Of a stretch of DNA of 64,000 nucleotides, positions 36,524 to 54,506 are shown piece by piece (position 1 is the first letter of the stretch; each line of letters starts with the position of its first letter). Where the stretch lies: assembly GCF_005862305.2 (NCBI RefSeq), contig NZ_CP054021.1, forward strand, positions 1,922,001 to 1,986,000, read 5' to 3'. Below the pieces are notes generated by a model. The model was not told where the DNA came from. It was given only the letters and a program-made list of their open reading frames with translations, and did not search any database. The position numbers were made by a program, and so were the translations under genes. This DNA is from Rhizobium indicum (GTDB lineage Bacteria; Pseudomonadota; Alphaproteobacteria; Rhizobiales; Rhizobiaceae).

Positions 36524-38158
36524 TTAGTAAACATTCCGCCCACCTCCGACGCTTGCGAAGGGCTGTGGAAGGCCAAAATCTTCATTTTCGTATTCGTCGA
36601 CGACCGGTGCCGGGCGGGTAGCGCCCTCAAGGGCGCGCGGCGGTGTCACGCGCACCGGCGCCGGGCGCCCGGCAGTGGCGTTTTCCCGGGCGATGCGGAA
36701 TTCGCGAATCGTCTGGCCGAGCTCGAGAATGACGGTGTGGAGGTGGTCGGCGCCTTCGGCCGAGCGCTCCGCAAGGCCGGCGCTATCGGCCACCTCGCCA
36801 CCCAGGCCCTTGACGTCGGCTGTCACGCTGTCGAGGCTTGCGGCATGTTCGCCGGTTCGGGTGGCGATGCCTGATATGGCGGCGTTGATGTCGGTGACCT
36901 GACGCACGATGCTGCCGATCGAATCCTGTGTGCGGCCAACCATCTGCACGCCGGCATCGACCTGCGCCTTGGTCGTCGTCACCAGGGTTTTGATCTCGCG
37001 GGCGGCTTCGGCCGAACGCTGGGCAAGGGCGCGGACTTCCTGGGCGACGACGGCAAAACCGCGGCCGGAATCGCCGGCGCGGGCGGCCTCGATGCCGGCA
37101 TTCAGCGCCAGAAGATTGGTCTGGAAGGCGATCTCGTCGATCGCGCCGATGATCTGGCCGATCTTTTCGGCCGACTGCTCGATATCGGCCATGGCGCTGA
37201 TCGCGCGGCCGACGACCTCGCCGCTTTCCTCGACGGCAGCGCGCGTCGTGGCGGCCGCCTGTTCGGCAGCGCGGCTGTCGGCGGCGCCGTCGCGCACACT
37301 GCCGGCGATGCCGGCAAGGGCAGCGGCGGAAAGCTGCAGCCGGTCGGCCTGGCCGGACGCCGTGCTTGCAAACTGCCGCGACAGACCCGCAAGTGAGCCC
37401 GTCGCCGCTTCGGCCTTGACCGTGCGCTCGGTAATAGTGGTGAATTCGGCCTGGAGGCCATCCAATGCACTGTTCAGCGCGACAGCGATGCCGCCATAGG
37501 CGCCGTCGCTGTCGACCGGCGCGCGTCGCGTCAGGTCGCGTGCGGACAGGCCGTCGATGACATCGCCGAAGATCCGGATGATTTCGGCCTCGTTGGCGGC
37601 GCGCTGATCGGCGAGCGCGCGCTGCTCCCCGGCGCGCAGCGCATTGAAGCGGAGCGAGACGGCAATTTCCACATCGACCATGACGATGCGGATGATCGCC
37701 GTCATCAGGTCGGAGATTTCGCGGGTGCGGCGCTTGGCCGACGGCAGCAGTGGACGGCCGGCGATCTCTTCGGCGAGGCCGGAAACGAGATGCTCCAGCA
37801 TGACGCCATGGCCGGCCACGTGCCAGCGCGGGTCAAGACCCATCTTGCTTTCGGTATCGGAGAGAACCTTGACGCGCTCGGCATAGAGGCTGTCGAACCG
37901 TGCATCCGTCAGCACGTCCCAATGCGAAGATTGCAGATCGTGCAGGCGCTCGACCTGGCGCTCGCTCTCGAAATTGCGCGAGGCGTCTGGGAATGACTGG
38001 AACCGGTGGAAGAGATCCCTGAGGCCCGCCTTCAGATGGGCTTCAAGCGCCGGCCGGTTACGGCGCACCAGCTCGCACTGGTCGGCATCGAGACCGGCAA
38101 AGCGCAGGCGGTCGCGCAAGCTGCCTGCCTGCGCTCCACGAGCCTGATCTGATGGCAT
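36524..38158 (-). CDS. icpA: IcpA (McpE-type) cytoplasmic globin-coupled chemoreceptor
   Basis: The protein has 544 residues from an ATG with GAGGCAGG upstream (a TTG four codons earlier is possible). Residues about 15-180 are a protoglobin-like sensor domain ([20 protein letters not shown]). Residues about 270-490 form the receptor signalling domain with the hairpin tip [22 protein letters not shown] (quoted in part) and [20 protein letters not shown]. There is no membrane helix, so it is cytoplasmic. The place of the proximal haem His (HxxIGL in HemAT) reads E103-SKMGL, so haem binding is doubtful. No NWxxF tail is present. The equivalent S. meliloti gene is essential for normal chemotaxis. 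Confidence 0.92.
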
Positions 38159-38323
38159 GTCCTGCCTCAACGCCTGTCCCCAACCACTTTCCGGGCGAAA
38201 GCCCGGCCAAAAACTTGTGCAGCATCCGATGAACGCGAAGCGTTGAGACGGTCCTCACCACCGGTTACAACCGGCGGAGCGAAGCCCCCTGATCAGCTAT
38301 GTTTCGGAGCTGTCTGAAGAGAT

Positions 38324-45768: not shown

Positions 45769-46485
45769 ATGTCATCCGACCCGACAAGACCGCCGGAAAC
45801 CACCGTTGCCAGTGACAGCGAGGAGCGCATCAAGCGTTTTCTCGCGACCGCTTCGCACGACCTGCAATCGCCGCTCCGCCATATCGCCATGTATGCCGAA
45901 CTGCTGCTCGACGATCTCGAGGAGACGCTCGACGGCGAACAGCTTCAGAGCCTGCGGATGATCATGGAAAAGGCGCAGACGGCGCAGCGCCTCACCAAGG
46001 CATTGATGAGCCTTGCCGGCGGCACACCCCAGGTGACGCCTGAAGAGGTCGATCTGCAGGCGCTCGCCGAAAATGTCTGGGGCGAACTGACCGACGAGAC
46101 GGCGGTCGGCGAGGCGACGCTTGAAAGCGACGGCCTGCCCTCCATCCGTACCGACCCTGCCCTCTTCGGTCTGGTGCTGCGGCATCTGCTGACCAATGCC
46201 CTCATGTATCGCAGCGAAGCGCCGCCGCATGTGGCCATTGCCGCGGAGCGCGAGGGGACGGACTGGTTCATCCGGATTTCCGACAACGGCACGGGCATCG
46301 ATCCCGCCTATCGGGAGCGGATATTTGAGCCTTTCTGGAAATTGCCGAAGCCCGGAACGGTCCAGGGCGCCGGTCTCGGATTGACCACGACGCGGGAGTT
46401 TCTGACGGCGCTCGGCGGCGATATCAGCCTCGAACATTCGGATGAAAGCGGCAGCCGCTTCATCATCCGCCTTCCCATCGCTTGA
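45769..46485 (+). CDS. Soluble sensor-less histidine kinase
   Basis: The protein has 238 residues and no sensor domain or membrane helix. HisKA starts at once with phosphoacceptor His30 in ASHDLQSPLRHIAMYAE. The HATPase domain carries RHLLTNALMYRSEA (N box), ISDNGTGIDP (G1) and GAGLGLTTTREFL (G2). The lack of input suggests activation by a partner protein. It converges with a receiver gene whose stop is 2 bp away, so the two may form a pair. The His motif resembles those of the two other kinases in this island. Confidence 0.88.
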   Translation: MSSDPTRPPETTVASDSEERIKRFLATASHDLQSPLRHIAMYAELLLDDLEETLDGEQLQSLRMIMEKAQTAQRLTKALMSLAGGTPQVTPEEVDLQALAENVWGELTDETAVGEATLESDGLPSIRTDPALFGLVLRHLLTNALMYRSEAPPHVAIAAEREGTDWFIRISDNGTGIDPAYRERIFEPFWKLPKPGTVQGAGLGLTTTREFLTALGGDISLEHSDESGSRFIIRLPIA

Positions 46486-46487
46486 GA

Positions 46488-46925
46488 TCAGATGCTGTAA
46501 TCGTCCTTCCAGAAATCCGGGACGTCATAGGTCACATATTCGCGAATGATGTGTTGCAGCGTCTGGGCATCGATTTCGTCCTTGCCGATGCGGAAATCGA
46601 CGCCGTAATCCGGGAATTCCTGGAAATAACCGCCCGATATATCGGTCGAGACGACGCCGATCGGACCGGTGTAACCGATGCCGCGCAACTCCGGCACCGT
46701 GTCGCGGAAATCGGCATTGGGCAAAAGGCGATTGTCGAGCAGGATGAGATCGAAGCGCGCCGCGCGGATCTTTTCCAGCGCGTCACCGATCGATTGCGAA
46801 TATTCAACCTCGACGGCCGGCTCGGAGAGATCGGCGATCTTCTTCTTGAGCGCGCGGAATTCGATGAATTCGTCGTCGACAAAGAGAACCTTTACGGCAT
46901 TCCTCCGGCCCGTTTCGGTGATCAT
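46488..46925 (-). CDS. Single-domain response regulator
   Basis: The protein has 145 residues: one receiver with Asp17, Asp18, phosphoacceptor Asp64 (LILLDNRLLPN), Ser/Thr in VVSTDIS and Lys in IGKDE. The region after the acceptor Asp is unusual (NRLLPNADFRDTV instead of xMPxxDG), and the C-terminal 25 residues extend past the receiver. There is no output domain. It is 30 bp downstream of a LuxR-type gene in the same direction. Confidence 0.85.
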   Translation of the reverse strand: MITETGRRNAVKVLFVDDEFIEFRALKKKIADLSEPAVEVEYSQSIGDALEKIRAARFDLILLDNRLLPNADFRDTVPELRGIGYTGPIGVVSTDISGGYFQEFPDYGVDFRIGKDEIDAQTLQHIIREYVTYDVPDFWKDDYSI

Positions 46926-46955
46926 CGTCTCATTTCCCCAATCCCGAAACCAACT

Positions 46956-47666
46956 TCACGAAACCAAACCATTCCTCAAGGCGATCGCCACCATATGAAC
47001 GCGGTTCACAGCGTCAAGTTTGCGCGCGGCCGCGGTGATGTGCGAATTGACCGTATGTTCGGAAAGACCGAGAATGATGGCGATTTCCGCCGACGTCTTG
47101 CCTTCGCTCGTCCATTTGACGATTTCCGATTCGCGCTGGGTCAGCCGTCCGGACATTTCCGGCGTCAGGATTTCCTCGTAGAGCTTGTCGAAAATGCGCA
47201 TGGCGTCGAGAAGCATGTCGGCGATCTCACTCTGATCCGGCTCCTGACGCTCGCCGCTGAGCACGAGACAATATCGCCGACCTTCCGGCGTGAACAGCGG
47301 GATGAAGAGAAAGACGCCGCCGAGGAACTCGTTGAAAACAAGATCGGACGGATAATCTTCCGGCTGTGCGCTCCTGCCATGGACCGGCGTGGCCAGGAAC
47401 TGGGCGGTCTTTGCCCGGACGGTGCCCAGCGCTTCCTTCAACGTCGTGATGAAAAGGCCGACACGCCGCTCGGCAACATTGGTGATGACGATATCGCGTT
47501 CACCGAAAGGGGCCGAAGCCTCGGAAATGCGGGCCAGCGCGAAATTATCGAAGTTGTAATGCTGTGCCGCCGATTTCAGCAGACGGAAAAAATCGGTGCG
47601 GTTGATCGCCCGGCTCAGCTCCGGTCCGGCATGAAAGGGAATTGCCGGGGCATTGTTCATTCCCAC
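46956..47666 (-). CDS. LuxR-type regulator with ligand-like domain, VisN/VisR-like
   Basis: The protein has 236 residues. The N-terminal 160 residues form a LuxR autoinducer-binding-like domain, although the Trp/Tyr/Asp signature of AHL binders is not evident. The C-terminal GerE helix-turn-helix is at about 173-230 (TQRESEIVKWTSEGKTSAEI, LGLSEHTVNSHITAAARKLD). Length, layout and the tail ALRNGLVS resemble VisN and VisR. It may regulate the neighbouring signalling genes. Ligand and targets are unknown. Confidence 0.82.
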   Translation of the reverse strand: MGMNNAPAIPFHAGPELSRAINRTDFFRLLKSAAQHYNFDNFALARISEASAPFGERDIVITNVAERRVGLFITTLKEALGTVRAKTAQFLATPVHGRSAQPEDYPSDLVFNEFLGGVFLFIPLFTPEGRRYCLVLSGERQEPDQSEIADMLLDAMRIFDKLYEEILTPEMSGRLTQRESEIVKWTSEGKTSAEIAIILGLSEHTVNSHITAAARKLDAVNRVHMVAIALRNGLVS

Positions 47667-48140: not shown

Positions 48141-48518
48141 CTACATCTCAAGATTGAGAATGATCTTGGCAAGGTCAAGTGGCTTTTCCAGATAGACATC
48201 GGCGCCGGCATCGAGTGAGCGCGCGCGGTCCTCGGCAGCATCCGATCCGCTGCAGATAGCAAGCCGCATCGCCTTGAAACGATCATCCAGGCGCAACCGA
48301 GTGATCAGGCCGATTCCGCTATCGAGCGGCATGTAGAGATCGGCGACCAGCAGATCGGGCGAGGTCTTGCCTTCCGCCGCGCGCGTCTCCAGTGCCTCCA
48401 GCGCCAATTCGGCGGTCGAAAAACAGAATAGATCGACGTCTAACTGCTGTTTTTTGCTCATATAGTCGACATAGAAGAGGTCATCCTTGCTATCGTCGAC
48501 ATAAAATAGGGTGGTCAT
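48141..48518 (-). CDS. Single-domain response regulator (Rcp1-like)
   Basis: The protein has 125 residues, one receiver with VDDSKDD at the acidic pocket, Asp60 as acceptor (LLVADLYMPLDSG) and Lys in LEKPL. The sequence fits the group of small receivers that accept phosphate from HDLxEPLR-type kinases. It is divergent from the FixL-PAS kinase gene over a 193-bp gap, so one intergenic region may control both. Confidence 0.87.
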   Translation of the reverse strand: MTTLFYVDDSKDDLFYVDYMSKKQQLDVDLFCFSTAELALEALETRAAEGKTSPDLLVADLYMPLDSGIGLITRLRLDDRFKAMRLAICSGSDAAEDRARSLDAGADVYLEKPLDLAKIILNLEM

Positions 48519-48711
48519 CTAGCACCGTTATCTGGATATTGTTCGAATGAACCTCGCTGTCCTTCGACATCACCATACCGCGGTTCCACTAAAATTCGAT
48601 ATACCTCATCGCAGATCATTTCGCAAAAAGCGCGGCACCGCCCTGCCTTGCCTATTGAGTATTCCTCGATTTCGGAAAAGATGGCCGCGCAAACCGAAGG
48701 AGGACACACGG

Positions 48712-50853
48712 GTGCAGGATCAGGGCAACGTGGACCTGCAGGACCAGCCAAGGCGGCACTACCGTGCCTTTGCGATAGCCGTCGGCTGCCTGATGTTGCT
48801 TCTCGGCGTAACGGCGCTTACCGGCTGGCTGCTGCAGATCGAGATTGTCATTTCGCTGGTTCCCGGCTTTCCATCGATGGCCTTCAATACGGCGCTCTGC
48901 TTCGTGCTTTCCGGCGTGGGACTTGCCACTTCGACACTCGCCGCCCGCCGTTTTCGAGCAACGGCGGCGATCACGGCGGGGCTTGCGGCGGCGATCGCCG
49001 CTGCCCGGCTCGTGGAAATCGTCATGATCGGGCGAACTTTTCACAATGTCGACGTGTTGATCTCGCGCTTCCTGGTTTCGCCGGATTTCATCGCGGAGAT
49101 CGGCGGCGGCATGGGGCCGAACACGGCGCTGGTCTTCCTGATCGCCAATCTCTCGCTGCTGCTCTCGCTCCAGGTGGAGAGGTCCAGAAGCCAGGTGGTG
49201 CAGGAATTGACGAGCTACGTCGTCATCACGCTCGGCATGATCGCGCTGGCCAGCTATGTCACCGATGCCGAACAGGGCTACCGCTGGGGACCCTATGCGG
49301 CGATGGCGCTGCATACGGCGGTCGGCATGGTGATCTTCGGCTCCGGGCTTCTCGCCCGCTCCTGGTGGATGCAGCCGGCAAACCGGGCGCAGATCCCGCT
49401 GTGGATCCCGGCTGCGGTCTGCTTCACCGGCCTTCTCGTCGATCTCTATACGCCGCTGGGTGTCGCCAACGGCATTCTCTATGTACCGCTGGTGCTGACG
49501 GCGCTCTGGTTCGGCAACAGAAATGCGCCGCTTTTCTTCGCCTTTGCCTGTACCGTGCTCCTGATGCTCGGCTTCTTCGCCGTCAAGCACGACGAGGCGG
49601 GGTTCTGGCAGGAGATCGCCAACCGCACCATTACGGCTGCCACGCTTTGGCTGATCGCGCTCTTCGTCTTCTATTTCATGCGCAACACCCATCATCTGGA
49701 AAGCGAGCGTGTCCGCTTCGGCGCGCTGGTGCGCGGCACGCCTGATGCCGTCGTCGTCATCGACGAGCGTGGAACGATCAAGAATTTCAATCCGGCGGCT
49801 GAAAGCATGTTCGGCTACTCCCCGCAGGAGACGATCGGCAAAAACATCAAGATGCTGATGCCCGAACCCTACCATTCCGAGCACGACGGCTATCTCGCGC
49901 ATTACCGGCAGACCGGCGAGGAGCGCATCATCGGCACGACGCGCATGGTCTCCGGACGACGCAAGAACGGCATCGTCTTTCCGATCGATGTTTCCATCAG
50001 CGCCGTCGTCACCGGCCATACGAAAACCTTCGTTGGTATCGTGCGCGACATCAGCGAGCGCGTCCGGCAGGAAGAACGGATGAAAACGACGCTTTCTCAG
50101 CTCGAGGCCTATACGGCCGAGCTCGAGCGCAGCAACCACGACCTCGATGAATTCGCCTATATCGCCTCGCATGATCTCAAGGAGCCGCTGCGCGGCCTGC
50201 ACAACCACTCCCGCTTCCTGTTGGAGGATTATGAAGACAAGCTCGATGCGGACGGCGTGCGCCGGCTGAACCGGCTCGTGCGTCTCAGCCAGCGCATGGA
50301 GAAACTCGTCAACGAGCTTCTTTATTTCTCCCGGCTCGGACGCCAGCAGCTGGCGGTCAAACGCACCGATATCGGCCTGATCGTCAAGGATGTCGTCGCG
50401 ACGATGGAGTTGCTGCTGGAGGAACGGCACGCCAAGGTCATCATCGACGGCCGGCTGCCGGAGGTGGTCTGCGATGCGCCGCGGTTGACCGAAGTGTTCC
50501 GCAATCTCATTACCAACGCGATCAAATACAACGATAAACCGGCGCCGCTCGTCTCGATCGGCTATCTTGACCGGTTCGTCGGCAAGGACGGCACGGTTGC
50601 CCGCAACGTGTTTTTCGTTAAGGATAACGGCAAGGGCATTCCGCAGGAATTCCACGAGGATATTTTCCGCATTTTCAAACGGCTGGAAAAGTCGCAGGAT
50701 TCCGACGACGGGACCGGAGCAGGCCTCACCTTCGTTCGCAAGATCATCGCGCGGCACAATGGCGATATCTGGCTGGAATCCGAGGTCGGCACCGGCACGA
50801 CATTCTACTTCACTCTGGGAAAAAAGCGCGAGGGGCAGAATGCAGCAGCGTGA
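48712..50853 (+). CDS. Membrane histidine kinase with FixL-type PAS domain
   Basis: The chosen GTG start has AAGGAGGA 7 bp upstream and gives 713 residues; longer in-frame starts give a basic, unlikely N-terminus. About seven to eight membrane helices lie in residues 20-320. The PAS domain (about 335-455) has LMPEPYHSEHDGYL and GEERIIGTTR: His391 aligns with the haem-ligand His200 and Arg411 with Arg220 of Bradyrhizobium FixL. HisKA has His487 in ASHDLKEPLRG, and the HATPase has VKDNGKGIP and GTGAGLTFVRKI. It is followed by a receiver gene overlapping by 14 bp. Confidence 0.9.
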   Translation: MQDQGNVDLQDQPRRHYRAFAIAVGCLMLLLGVTALTGWLLQIEIVISLVPGFPSMAFNTALCFVLSGVGLATSTLAARRFRATAAITAGLAAAIAAARLVEIVMIGRTFHNVDVLISRFLVSPDFIAEIGGGMGPNTALVFLIANLSLLLSLQVERSRSQVVQELTSYVVITLGMIALASYVTDAEQGYRWGPYAAMALHTAVGMVIFGSGLLARSWWMQPANRAQIPLWIPAAVCFTGLLVDLYTPLGVANGILYVPLVLTALWFGNRNAPLFFAFACTVLLMLGFFAVKHDEAGFWQEIANRTITAATLWLIALFVFYFMRNTHHLESERVRFGALVRGTPDAVVVIDERGTIKNFNPAAESMFGYSPQETIGKNIKMLMPEPYHSEHDGYLAHYRQTGEERIIGTTRMVSGRRKNGIVFPIDVSISAVVTGHTKTFVGIVRDISERVRQEERMKTTLSQLEAYTAELERSNHDLDEFAYIASHDLKEPLRGLHNHSRFLLEDYEDKLDADGVRRLNRLVRLSQRMEKLVNELLYFSRLGRQQLAVKRTDIGLIVKDVVATMELLLEERHAKVIIDGRLPEVVCDAPRLTEVFRNLITNAIKYNDKPAPLVSIGYLDRFVGKDGTVARNVFFVKDNGKGIPQEFHEDIFRIFKRLEKSQDSDDGTGAGLTFVRKIIARHNGDIWLESEVGTGTTFYFTLGKKREGQNAAA

Positions 50854-51265
50854 TACGCAACCGATCCTGATCGTCGAGGACAGCGAAGACGATTTCGAAG
50901 CGACGATGCGCGCCTTCAAACGCACCAATCTGCGCAACTCGATCCGCTGGGCGGCCTCCGGTCAGGAAGCGCTCGACATGCTTGCCGAGATGGTGCCGAA
51001 ACCGGGGCTGATCCTGCTCGACCTCAACATGCCGGGTCTTGACGGCCGCAAGACGCTGGAGGCGATCAAGTCGAACGCCGGCTGGCGCAAGATCCCGGTG
51101 GTGATCCTCACGACCTCCGACGACGAACGCGATATCGAAGGCTGCTATGCGCTCGGCGCCAATACATATGTGCAGAAGCCGGTGGATCTCGACGGGCTCT
51201 TCGCCGCGATCCAGCGGCTGAAGGAATACTGGTTCGAAATCGCGATCCTGCCACTCGAGGACTGA
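50840..51265 (+). CDS. Single-domain response regulator (Rcp1-like), partner of the FixL-PAS kinase
   Basis: The protein has 141 residues: a receiver with VEDSEDD, acceptor Asp61 (LILLDLNMPGLDG), Thr in ILTTSDDE and Lys in VQKPV, then a short helical end. The start ATG lies inside the kinase end (14-bp overlap, GAGGGGC upstream), so translation is coupled and this is its probable phosphate acceptor. There is no DNA-binding domain, so output must be by protein contact or relay to the following hybrid kinase. Confidence 0.9.
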   Translation: MQQRDTQPILIVEDSEDDFEATMRAFKRTNLRNSIRWAASGQEALDMLAEMVPKPGLILLDLNMPGLDGRKTLEAIKSNAGWRKIPVVILTTSDDERDIEGCYALGANTYVQKPVDLDGLFAAIQRLKEYWFEIAILPLED

Positions 51266-51269
51266 CAGA

Positions 51270-52865
51270 TTGGCGGAACACTGCTCTATTCTCATCATCG
51301 ACGACAACATCGACGATCTCGAGGTCTATCGCCGCATATTGGGCCGCGTTTCCAGCACTGCCTATACCGTCGTGGAGGCGGAGACGGGCGAAGAGGGTCG
51401 TGCGCTGAATGGCCGGAAACGGCCGGACTGCATCCTGCTCGACTATTCGCTGCCGGGGCGAGACGGGCTGGGCGTTCTTGCCGATATCCTGGAGGATGAT
51501 CCCGCCGCCAACGTCATCATGCTGACCGGCCAGGGCAACGAAACCGTCGCCGTCGAGGTGATGAAGAGCGGCGCACGCGACTATCTGACAAAGGATTCGC
51601 TGTCGCCCGAGACACTGCATCGCTGCATTCAGAACGCCATCATGCACGGCATGCTGGAAGCAAAGCTGGAGCAGAAGCGGCAATCGCTTGAGATCTTCAC
51701 CCGCGCCATGGCCCATGATTTGAAGGAGCCGCTCCGGACGATCAAATCCTTCAGCCGCATCCTGCACGGTTCTGCGGCGCTCCCGGCCGAAGACCGGGAA
51801 TTGCTCGATTACGTGCTCAGCGCCGCCGACCACATGGAAGACCTGATCGTCAAGGTCTCGGGCTTCACCAAGCTCGAGGCCTCCGGCGGGCTAGAGCTCA
51901 GGCCGGTCTCGCTCTCGGCCGTGCTCGACCAGGTGGAGGACAATCTTCGCCAGCAGACCGAAAGCCGCGGAGCCGTCATCATCCGCGGGGCGCTGCCGGA
52001 GGTCATGGGCGATGCGACGCTGCTGACCCAGCTCTTGCAGAACCTGGTGTCGAATGCCATCCGCTATTGCGAGCAGAAGGTTCCGGAGATCAGCATCACA
52101 GGCGAAGCGCTGGGCGATACCTGCCGCCTCACCGTGCGTGACAACGGGCCCGGCATCGACCCCGAGCACCGCGAGCTGATCTTCCAGCCGTTCAAGCGTC
52201 TCGTCGGGCGTGGCATCGAAGGCACCGGGCTCGGCCTTGCCATCTGCCGCCGCATCGCGCAGATGCATGGCGGCTCGATCTGGTGCGAGGCAGAAAATGG
52301 GCCGGGCGCCACCTTCGTTCTCGAAGTGCCGCTCGCCGAGGCGAGGCCCGTGCCATCATCCGCATCGGCCGTCCCGCACAGCGCCAGGCCGGCGGAGCAG
52401 TCAGGCGAAGGTTCGGGCAGGCTCGCCGAAGTGCTGCTGGTCGAAGACAGCCCGGCCGACATCCAGCTTCTGAAGATCAAGCTGATGCGGCGGGACAAGG
52501 TGAATTTCAACCTGCATGTCGCCACCAACGGACGCGAGGCGATGCGGCTGCTCGAAGAGCGCGCCGGCATCGCCGATGTGCCGCAGATCGACCTGATGCT
52601 GCTCGATATCAACATGCCGATCATGGACGGCTTCGAGGTGCTGCATGCGCTTTCAGCCGACATCCGCCTCAAGCAAATTCCCGTCTGTATCCTCAGCACC
52701 TCAAGCGACGAGAGCGACATGCGGCGGGCCAGAAATCTCGGCGCGCGCGCCTATATGGTCAAGCCGCCGACCCTGCAGCAACTGGAAGAGGCACTTGAAG
52801 ATGTCGAACATTTGGAGTTGTTGCAGCGCGGCGATTCGCTTGCGCTTTGTGCGGAACAAAATTAA
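51270..52865 (+). CDS. Cytoplasmic hybrid protein: receiver-HisKA-HATPase-receiver
   Basis: The protein has 531 residues from a TTG start (GAGGA 8 bp upstream), 4 bp after the receiver gene. The first receiver (about 5-125) has DDNIDD and Asp58 (ILLDYSLPGRDG). HisKA has His149 in MAHDLKEPLRTIKSF, and the HATPase has LVSNAIRY, VRDNGPGID and GTGLGLAICRRI. A second receiver (about 388-515) has VEDSPAD and LLDINMPIMDG. The kinase is thus placed between two receivers: the first may switch it, the second may take its phosphate. No membrane or DNA-binding part is present. Confidence 0.9.
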   Translation: MAEHCSILIIDDNIDDLEVYRRILGRVSSTAYTVVEAETGEEGRALNGRKRPDCILLDYSLPGRDGLGVLADILEDDPAANVIMLTGQGNETVAVEVMKSGARDYLTKDSLSPETLHRCIQNAIMHGMLEAKLEQKRQSLEIFTRAMAHDLKEPLRTIKSFSRILHGSAALPAEDRELLDYVLSAADHMEDLIVKVSGFTKLEASGGLELRPVSLSAVLDQVEDNLRQQTESRGAVIIRGALPEVMGDATLLTQLLQNLVSNAIRYCEQKVPEISITGEALGDTCRLTVRDNGPGIDPEHRELIFQPFKRLVGRGIEGTGLGLAICRRIAQMHGGSIWCEAENGPGATFVLEVPLAEARPVPSSASAVPHSARPAEQSGEGSGRLAEVLLVEDSPADIQLLKIKLMRRDKVNFNLHVATNGREAMRLLEERAGIADVPQIDLMLLDINMPIMDGFEVLHALSADIRLKQIPVCILSTSSDESDMRRARNLGARAYMVKPPTLQQLEEALEDVEHLELLQRGDSLALCAEQN

Positions 52866-52949
52866 GCGATCGTCATTGGCAACGGTATGACCTTCGCAGC
52901 TCTCATACTCGCGCTCCTGACGACACCGCTTCAATCAGGACTGCTCTCG

Positions 52950-54506
52950 ATGGTATCAGGCATACATCACATCACGGCCGTCACCCGCAAGGTGCAGGCG
53001 AATGTGGACTTCTACGCGGGATTTCTCGGCATGCGGCTCGTCAAGCAGACAGCCGGTTACGAGGACGCGACACAGCTTCATCTGTTCTACGGCGATGCAG
53101 TGGGGGCGCCGGGCTCGCTGCTGACCTTCCTCGCCTGGGAAGATGGCGCGCCCGGCCGGGCCGGTTACGGCCAGATCAGCGAAATATCGCTGTCGATCAA
53201 TCCCACCAGCATCGGCTACTGGCTGACGCGCGCCATGAGCTTCGGTCTGAGCTCAGAGGGACCGGCCGACGAATTCGGCGAGCCAGTGCTCAGGCTGAAG
53301 GATCCTGACAACATCATCCTCAAGCTCGCGGGCGCAAAGAACCTCGCATCGCCGGCCGCCTGGGACGGCGCCTCGATCCCGGTCGAGCATGCCGTTCAGC
53401 GCGTGCGCGGCGCGACCATGCTGACGGAGAAGCCCGCCGAAAGCCGCAGTTTCCTCGAGACGCATTTCGGTTACCGCTTCCAGGCCAGCCGCGGCACGAT
53501 CGACAGGCTGGTGTCGCAATCCGGTGACGTCATCGACGTGCGGGATGCGCGCGGCTTCTGGTCCGGCGCGCCGGGCACCGGGACGGTCGATCACGTCGCT
53601 TTCCGCGCTGCCGACGAGGAGACGCTGCTTTCCGTTCGCAAGGCTCTTGAGGCGACCGAGGCATCGCCGACCAACATGCATGACCGCAAATATTTCCGCT
53701 CGCTCTACGCCCGCGAGCCCGGCGGCACGCTGGTGGAACTCGCCACCGACAAGCCCGGCATGACCGTCGACGAAGAGCAGGCCGCCCTCGGGGGGAAGCT
53801 GTTCGCGCCACCCGAAGCCATCACCAACCTTCACGACCTGAAGGTGATGTTGCCGCAATTTTCAATGCCTGGCCAGCCGCGTGTCAATTATCGCGAGCTG
53901 CCATTCGTCCACCGGTTCTATACGCCCCCGGACCCCGATGGCAGCGTCTTCGTTTTGTTGCACGGCTCCGGCGGCAATGAGACGACGCTGATGCCGCTCC
54001 TGAACAAGGCGGCGCCGCGGGCGACGCTGCTCGGCGTGCGCGGCCGGGCGACGGAGGAAGGTTTTCCGCGCTGGTACAAGCGCATTACGCCCTTCTCCTT
54101 CGATCAGAACGACATCAAGACCGAGGCCGAAGCCTTCGCGGCCTTCATCGAAGGCGCCGTCAAATCCTACGGGCTCGATCCTCAGAAGGTCGTCTATGTC
54201 GGTTATTCCAATGGCGCCAACCTCCTGAACTCGCTGCTTTACCTGCACCCGAACCTGGTTCACAAGGCGGTGCTGCTCCGCTCCATGCCTGTACTCAGCG
54301 ACTATCCGCATGCCGATCTGAAAGGCACGGACCTGCTCGTCATCAGCGGCAAGACGGATGCCTATGGCAAATATGCGAGCGAGTTGGAAGAAAGGCTGAA
54401 GAGTTCGGGCGCCACCGTCGATTCCGACGTCATCCCCGGCGGCCACGATCTCGGCGATGCCGACATTCCGATCATCCAGAAATGGCTGTTGCAGGAAAAT
54501 CGCTGA
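52950..54506 (+). CDS. Fused glyoxalase-fold ring-cleaving dioxygenase (MhqO-like) and carboxylesterase (MhqD-like)
   Basis: The chosen start MVSGIHHITAVTRKVQANVD gives 518 residues; 21 upstream codons look like non-coding leader. Residues 1-300 hold two VOC/glyoxalase modules with candidate metal ligands in IHHITAV, TVDHVAFRA and the Glu of GGTLVELATD. Residues about 325-515 form an alpha/beta-hydrolase of the phospholipase/carboxylesterase family with oxyanion LLHGSGGNE, nucleophile Ser420 in GYSNGAN and His in GGHDLG. In Bacillus the separate MhqO and MhqD proteins answer to quinones; the fusion suggests a two-step detoxification of quinone-like compounds. Confidence 0.88.
   Translation: MVSGIHHITAVTRKVQANVDFYAGFLGMRLVKQTAGYEDATQLHLFYGDAVGAPGSLLTFLAWEDGAPGRAGYGQISEISLSINPTSIGYWLTRAMSFGLSSEGPADEFGEPVLRLKDPDNIILKLAGAKNLASPAAWDGASIPVEHAVQRVRGATMLTEKPAESRSFLETHFGYRFQASRGTIDRLVSQSGDVIDVRDARGFWSGAPGTGTVDHVAFRAADEETLLSVRKALEATEASPTNMHDRKYFRSLYAREPGGTLVELATDKPGMTVDEEQAALGGKLFAPPEAITNLHDLKVMLPQFSMPGQPRVNYRELPFVHRFYTPPDPDGSVFVLLHGSGGNETTLMPLLNKAAPRATLLGVRGRATEEGFPRWYKRITPFSFDQNDIKTEAEAFAAFIEGAVKSYGLDPQKVVYVGYSNGANLLNSLLYLHPNLVHKAVLLRSMPVLSDYPHADLKGTDLLVISGKTDAYGKYASELEERLKSSGATVDSDVIPGGHDLGDADIPIIQKWLLQENR

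Follow-up and report, generated by a model that had tools for sequence, protein, structure and literature searches.

A membrane histidine kinase of Rhizobium indicum with a FixL/DosP-type PAS domain, a bacteriophytochrome-type kinase core and an adjoining Rcp-type receiver: a candidate haem-based oxygen sensor

The window analyzed here is a stretch of 64,000 nucleotides from Rhizobium indicum (contig NZ_CP054021.1, positions 1,922,001 to 1,986,000 of the forward strand). Toward its 3′ end lie genes for a membrane sensor histidine kinase, a stand-alone receiver and a hybrid kinase, with a further receiver divergent from them. The features, in window coordinates, are as follows.

48141..48518, minus strand: single receiver gene, transcribed divergently and in conserved synteny at the 59 Rhizobium-group loci (L025-L083) among the best 80 of at least 558 relatives
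48712..50853, plus strand: membrane sensor histidine kinase, 713 amino acids, GTG start
48745..49686, plus strand: N-terminal membrane region of the kinase, residues 12-325, about ten helices, for which no Pfam family was found
49717..50070, plus strand: FixL-like PAS domain, residues 336-453
49882..49884, plus strand: codon of His391, which aligns with the haem-ligand His200 of BjFixL and His194 of SmFixL
49942..49944, plus strand: codon of Arg411, which aligns with the O2-bonding Arg220 of BjFixL and Arg214 of SmFixL
50170..50172, plus strand: codon of His487 in HDLKEPLR, the predicted phosphoacceptor
50473..50820, plus strand: HATPase_c domain, residues 588-703
50840..51265, plus strand: stand-alone receiver similar to RcpB and Rcp1, with its ATG inside the last codons of the kinase gene (14-base overlap)
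51270..52865, plus strand: hybrid kinase of 531 amino acids, REC-HisKA(HDLKEPLR)-HATPase-REC, the third gene

The GTG at 48712 follows AAGGAGG by 8 bases; a longer open reading frame with an ATG at 48547 is also present, and the 768-amino acid database protein P0002 matches that length. The hybrid kinase starts with TTG at 51270, four bases past the receiver stop. Pfam searches of the kinase returned only PAS-type (338-447), HisKA (478-543) and HATPase_c (588-703) families, plus a sensor model overlying the PAS domain, and found no bacteriophytochrome PAS-GAF-PHY bilin module. The HDLKEPLR histidine motif named in the first-pass annotation is present, as are the many N-terminal membrane helices it described (ten candidates by hydropathy, and ten long helices before residue 342 in a structure model). 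Because this model had a mean pLDDT of 77 and a pTM of 0.46, the domain arrangement it gives was not used. Approximately 320 residues of membrane helices precede the PAS domain, and for this region the best that Pfam gave was DUF2754 at E 0.12. Beyond the list of kinase homologues, the region encoded at 48712-49686 matched 13 further proteins at 28-34% identity (53% for one short match), some of which have a GGDEF, CHASE or kinase domain. The region therefore resembles an as yet unnamed module found in several kinds of protein.

Translation of 48712-50853 confirmed His391 (in SEHDGYL) and Arg411 (in RIIGTTR) at a spacing of 20 residues. When the PAS domain was compared with the PDB, 19 distinct sequences matched at E ≤ 0.001. 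The first seven were FixL (E 7.7e-32 to 1e-28) and ranks 8-13 were six DosP/YddU sequences (E 1.3e-16 to 9.4e-15), followed by 10jx, named just as a multi-sensor kinase (5e-11), and others at 4.9e-5 and weaker. FixL and DosP/YddU are haem-binding proteins. Identity, counted over the shorter stretch of each pair, was 49% to SmFixL, 42% to BjFixL, and 49% and 44% to the two hFixL proteins of strain 3841. The modeled PAS domain superposed on the BjFixL haem domain 1lt0 at 1.8 Å over 116 columns, with a TM-score of 0.90 normalized by the target and 44% identity, and a helix begins at residue 391. Chance spacing of the two residues was rejected, given the homology to FixL and DosP and given that none of five other PAS domains in the fetched loci of the same genome has His at this column (two have Arg at the other).

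A study that also documents haem binding by FixL names His200/194 of FixL as the iron ligand, Arg220/214 as the residue that bonds to the O2, Arg206/200 as the holder of a haem propionate, and Ile215, Leu236 and Ile238 as the residues occupying the distal pocket (PMC10765370). By alignment, Ile215, Leu236 and Ile238 of BjFixL are kept or conservatively replaced in the kinase, as Ile406, Val427 and Ile429. The propionate-binding Arg is replaced by His397, a position that is His, Asn or Arg across orthologues, and Thr409-Thr410 stand in place of Ile-Gly or Ile-Asp. A propionate-binding Arg is not known to be common to all haem PAS domains. The domain thus has the proximal His at Fα, the distal Arg at +20, and the fold and nearest homology of a FixL/DosP-type haem PAS, and from its sequence we consider it likely to bind haem. 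To our knowledge, few members of the very large class of His/Arg PAS domains have been tested.

The remaining parts of the system resemble a different family. In a PDB search the kinase core matched best to the bacteriophytochromes 9ys3 and 8uph (2e-47), and the best match of the 50840 receiver was RcpB, 1k66 (3.7e-33), with Rcp1 among the following ten; a bacteriophytochrome-type core and a lone Rcp-type receiver were therefore both found. The earlier expectation of a partner receiver without a DNA-binding domain, not FixJ, was borne out by the Pfam domains and the similarity to RcpB. The arrangement is shared with bacteriophytochrome/Cph1 and their RcpB/Rcp1 partners, in both the core and the overlapping stand-alone receiver. 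What sets the present system apart is that the bilin module is missing, its place being taken by a haem-type PAS together with a membrane region. With the curated FixL model NF041777 the kinase scored about 170 bits against a cut-off of 850. Compared with the FixL proteins of Bradyrhizobium and Sinorhizobium, the PAS domain (42%–49% identity), its His and Arg and the like distal residues are shared, whereas the kinase core, receiver, membrane region, His397 and the Thr-Thr pair differ. From the PDB matches and the FixL score, we conclude that a PAS of the FixL/DosP type, a kinase of the phytochrome type and a receiver of the Rcp type, each a known module, have been placed on a membrane region.

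We consider it rather probable, from the sequence, the model and analogy, that this is a membrane-bound haem-PAS kinase of the FixL/DosP class with a bacteriophytochrome-type core, controlled by O2 and passing phosphate to the 50840 receiver. His391 would be the proximal holder of the haem iron, and Arg411 would form a distal hydrogen bond to bound O2. If the kinase works as FixL does, binding of O2 would lower its activity, so that falling O2 would lead to phosphorylation of His487 and transfer of the phosphate to the Rcp-type receiver. The receiver would then act by contacting a protein, for which the REC-controlled kinase encoded at 51270 is a possible candidate. On sequence grounds O2 has a better than even chance of being the physiological ligand.

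The distribution of the two residues was determined in several overlapping samples. Matches to the kinase at E ≤ 1e-150 were present in 94 of 148 genus genomes; 83 of these orthologues have His/Arg, ten have Leu with Gly, Ser or Cys, and one (G330) has Tyr/Arg. None has His without Arg, and the ten with Leu lack Arg and also Ile406/407. The first-pass annotation had named loss of these residues in close homologues as what would count against its reading. Both were kept in all 82 genus orthologues above 60% identity, and the ten that lost both are the more distant ones, at 57-59%. Among 48 aligned database orthologues, 38 have His/Arg, six lost both residues, three lost one (P0050, 61% identical, His/Gln; P0053, Tyr/Arg; P0100, Arg/Arg), and one has a gap (P0042).

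For gene neighborhoods, genome contigs were scanned with seeds drawn from the kinase motifs, leaving the PAS domain out of the seeds, and the best 80 of at least 558 relatives were taken; because these are best hits, the sample is biased to close relatives. Among them, 59 loci titled Rhizobium, Rhizobiaceae or Rhizobiales (L025-L083) were designated the Rhizobium group. This count overlaps with, and is not independent of, the 94-genome count. His/Arg was found in 50 of the 59, eight lost both residues, and one has Tyr/Arg (best 80 of at least 558 relatives). A tree was built from 66 of 81 rows (the 80 loci plus the window; L088 and L091-L104 omitted) after removing residues from about 335 to 454 to avoid circularity, with midpoint rooting only and with distant rows placed unsurely. 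In it the eight loci without His and Arg, from the best 80 of at least 558 relatives, form one side of a branch with support 100/98, nested among His/Arg rows. Over residues 380-412 these eight are 33-45% identical to P0001, versus 58-79% for six His/Arg relatives, and over the kinase core 78-80% versus 79-84%. All eight (best 80 of at least 558 relatives) keep the receiver, the hybrid kinase and the phosphoacceptor His. The simplest reading of these sequences would be that a ligand site dependent on both residues was lost once. Because the clade keeps the system, haem is not essential to whatever the kinase does, and the clade, with Leu and Gly, Ser or Cys for His and Arg, provides a natural control for the contribution of haem. 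One of its Leu/Gly members is R. metallidurans (L070).

These data bear on two alternatives to O2 control. It is unlikely that the PAS domain binds haem and senses redox, NO or CO instead of O2, or that it adds a further input to a membrane signal read by the N-terminal helices. Such a role would suit Thr409-Thr410 and His397, which make the pocket more polar than that of FixL, and the sizeable membrane region, unassigned to any named family, ahead of the domain. According to PMC10765370, SmFixL R200H, equivalent to the change at His397, rebinds CO at near the wild-type rate (Table 2), and in BjFixL R206A inhibition by O2 is significantly lower. Against this reading, the O2-bonding Arg411 is kept in 83 of 83 His-keeping genus orthologues and lost in all ten with Leu, and the sole His/Gln case seen is P0050. 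It is more unlikely still that the domain is a haem-free structural or dimerization domain, or binds another ligand, with His and Arg as inherited features of the class. The ten genus orthologues without both residues are as this would predict, with the gene run kept at the eight such loci with flanks (best 80 of at least 558 relatives), and so are the 26 of 121 proteins with four to six His/Arg PAS domains, which would mean many haems per chain. However, His and Arg mostly disappear together, and where His is missing it is the segment around the pocket that has diverged most, as one shared site predicts; FixL and DosP/YddU also account for all 13 of the closest sequences of known structure.

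It is very improbable that the kinase is simply the genome's diverged FixL or hFixL: several orthologues are named "Sensor protein FixL" in UniRef, but the score is 169.5 against 850 bits (the 3841 hFixL falls short too), the receiver is Rcp-like without a DNA-binding domain, and 3841 has this kinase plus two hFixL genes. An orthologue of FixL itself was ruled out on the score, the Rcp-like receiver and its missing DNA-binding domain. Nothing in the window's own genome or in 3841, hFixL included, passed the NF041777 cut-off. One frame of 1859 amino acids in the same genome (C1:1320598) scored 212.8 bits with this model, above the 170.1 bits of the kinase in that comparison; its PAS domain has Asp/Gln, and it was absent from the PAS search results of that genome.

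The same PAS profile detected in 3841 (G199) the kinase and two further PAS domains, at 1.1e-41 and 1.2e-39, both His/Arg and corresponding by position to hFixLc (RL1879) and hFixL9 (pRL90020). These proteins of R. johnstonii 3841 share the His/Arg PAS at 44-49% identity and, unlike the kinase, adjoin fixK/fxkR (PMC7888657). With the same profile no further hFixL-type PAS match was found in the window's own genome at E 1e-20, and the kinase was the one FixL-like protein with His/Arg that the searches of this genome found. Twelve further genomes, scored by profile alone, comprised six with another FixL-like PAS match (E ≤ 1e-36) and six without one at 1e-25. The oxygen sensors described for 3841 in the accessible text of PMC7888657 are hFixL, FnrN and NifA; the main text, as available, contained no term starting with RL06, the 3841 tag of the kinase itself being a guess. 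If the kinase binds O2, 3841 gains a further sensor, with an Rcp-type receiver beside it in the place of FixJ or FxkR, and a FixL-like sensor is present even in strains where no hFixL was detected.

In all 59 Rhizobium-group loci (best 80 of at least 558 relatives), the kinase is surrounded by the receiver, the hybrid kinase, the divergent receiver, a LuxR-type gene, a small receiver and a small kinase, and secDF is present in 57 of the 59. The other 21 of these best 80 come from other Alphaproteobacteria, Planctomycetes, Pelagicoccus, Vibrio, Nitrospinae and others. A receiver homologue lies directly downstream in 20 of the 21, and a REC-kinase homologue comes next on the same strand in 16 (by a loose criterion, and including two short frames). 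The kinase-adjacent PAS has His/Arg in 18 of these 21 loci from the best 80 of at least 558, the others being L088 (Leu/Arg), L101 (Glu/Gln) and L100 (unreadable). Among 199 genomes of the family (109 genera), four matched at E 1e-100, three of them within Rhizobium, so in that sample close full-length matches hardly occur outside this genus. Homologues other than orthologues contained 182 readable PAS domains: 168 with His/Arg, two with His only, eight with Arg only and four with neither.

The kinase had been described as a FixL-like haem PAS in a new setting. The sequence is consistent with a FixL-type haem PAS in a kinase other than FixL, whose output would pass through a receiver that lacks a DNA-binding domain. 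The kind of setting is no novelty, however: the PAS class is the published PAS cluster 3, and a FixL-like PAS, an HDLKEPLR kinase and a receiver occur together in several phyla. As reported in PMC10468136, cluster 3, which shares the His at Fα and includes FixL and DosP, holds more than 9700 sequences with this His and is tied to kinases and diguanylate cyclases, which makes it no surprise that a kinase other than FixL has a haem-type PAS. The LvrA/LvrB system of Leptospira was also compared: the hybrid kinase matched LvrB at 105.5 bits and the kinase core LvrA at 165.4, both far below the cut-off. LvrB is a REC-controlled kinase, and the Leptospira pair differ in domain arrangement and host. 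What looks new is the assembly of the modules, the standing of the kinase as the sole FixL-like His/Arg protein found in its genome, and the joint loss of both residues in one clade. A search of the literature on haem-PAS kinases and Rhizobium sensors, by title and start of abstract with few subscription journals covered, returned nothing on the kinase, which is weak evidence. More tentatively, and at slightly less than even odds, the system may be to oxygen what the phytochrome two-component system is to light. A haem PAS, in the position of the bilin module, would drive the phytochrome-type kinase, the Rcp receiver and the REC-controlled kinase, as a gene run shared by Rhizobium, Planctomycetes and Vibrio. 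For Rhizobium this would mean an oxygen sensor so far left uncounted, in some genomes the only FixL-like one, with one clade that dropped the haem site as a natural knock-out.

The kinase had also been placed next to motility genes. Adjacency did not hold: a stretch of 10.5 kb that includes genes for a Na+/H+ exchanger, secDF and others separates the kinase from the end of the chemotaxis and flagellar block at about 38.2 kb. Proximity is conserved, with a similar spacing (about 8-10 kb) in nine of nine Rhizobium flanks read. In G061, a genome of another genus, six queries for chemotaxis, secDF and exchanger genes found none in the 20 kb upstream of the kinase. A motility output has no support past the proximity kept in the nine flanks; G061 has the system without these genes. 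Beside cheR- and cheA-type genes, 36524-38170 (minus strand) encodes a methyl-accepting chemotaxis protein with a protoglobin domain (E 3.9e-34), presumably a haem-based sensor for oxygen or aerotaxis; such a protein was near the kinase in nine of ten flanks read.

The G061 kinase (L134) is an 854-amino acid frame with two tandem His/Arg PAS domains, followed by a receiver and a hybrid kinase that are 74% and 51% identical to those of the window. The 26 of 121 listed proteins with four to six FixL-like His/Arg PAS domains per chain lie among homologues P0048-P0102, and the four with a named organism (P0067, P0073, P0074 and P0102) are all from planctomycetes. If all these domains bind haem, the proteins would be multi-haem kinases; if not, the His/Arg signature means less. 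Within the window, 45769-47666 encodes a small soluble kinase (238 amino acids, HDLQSPLR), a LuxR-type regulator and a receiver that falls narrowly short of the Pfam cut-off, all of which keep their place beside the system in the 59 Rhizobium-group loci (best 80 of at least 558 relatives), and 52887-54506 is one frame of 539 amino acids with a glyoxalase/dioxygenase-like domain and a weak alpha/beta-hydrolase match.
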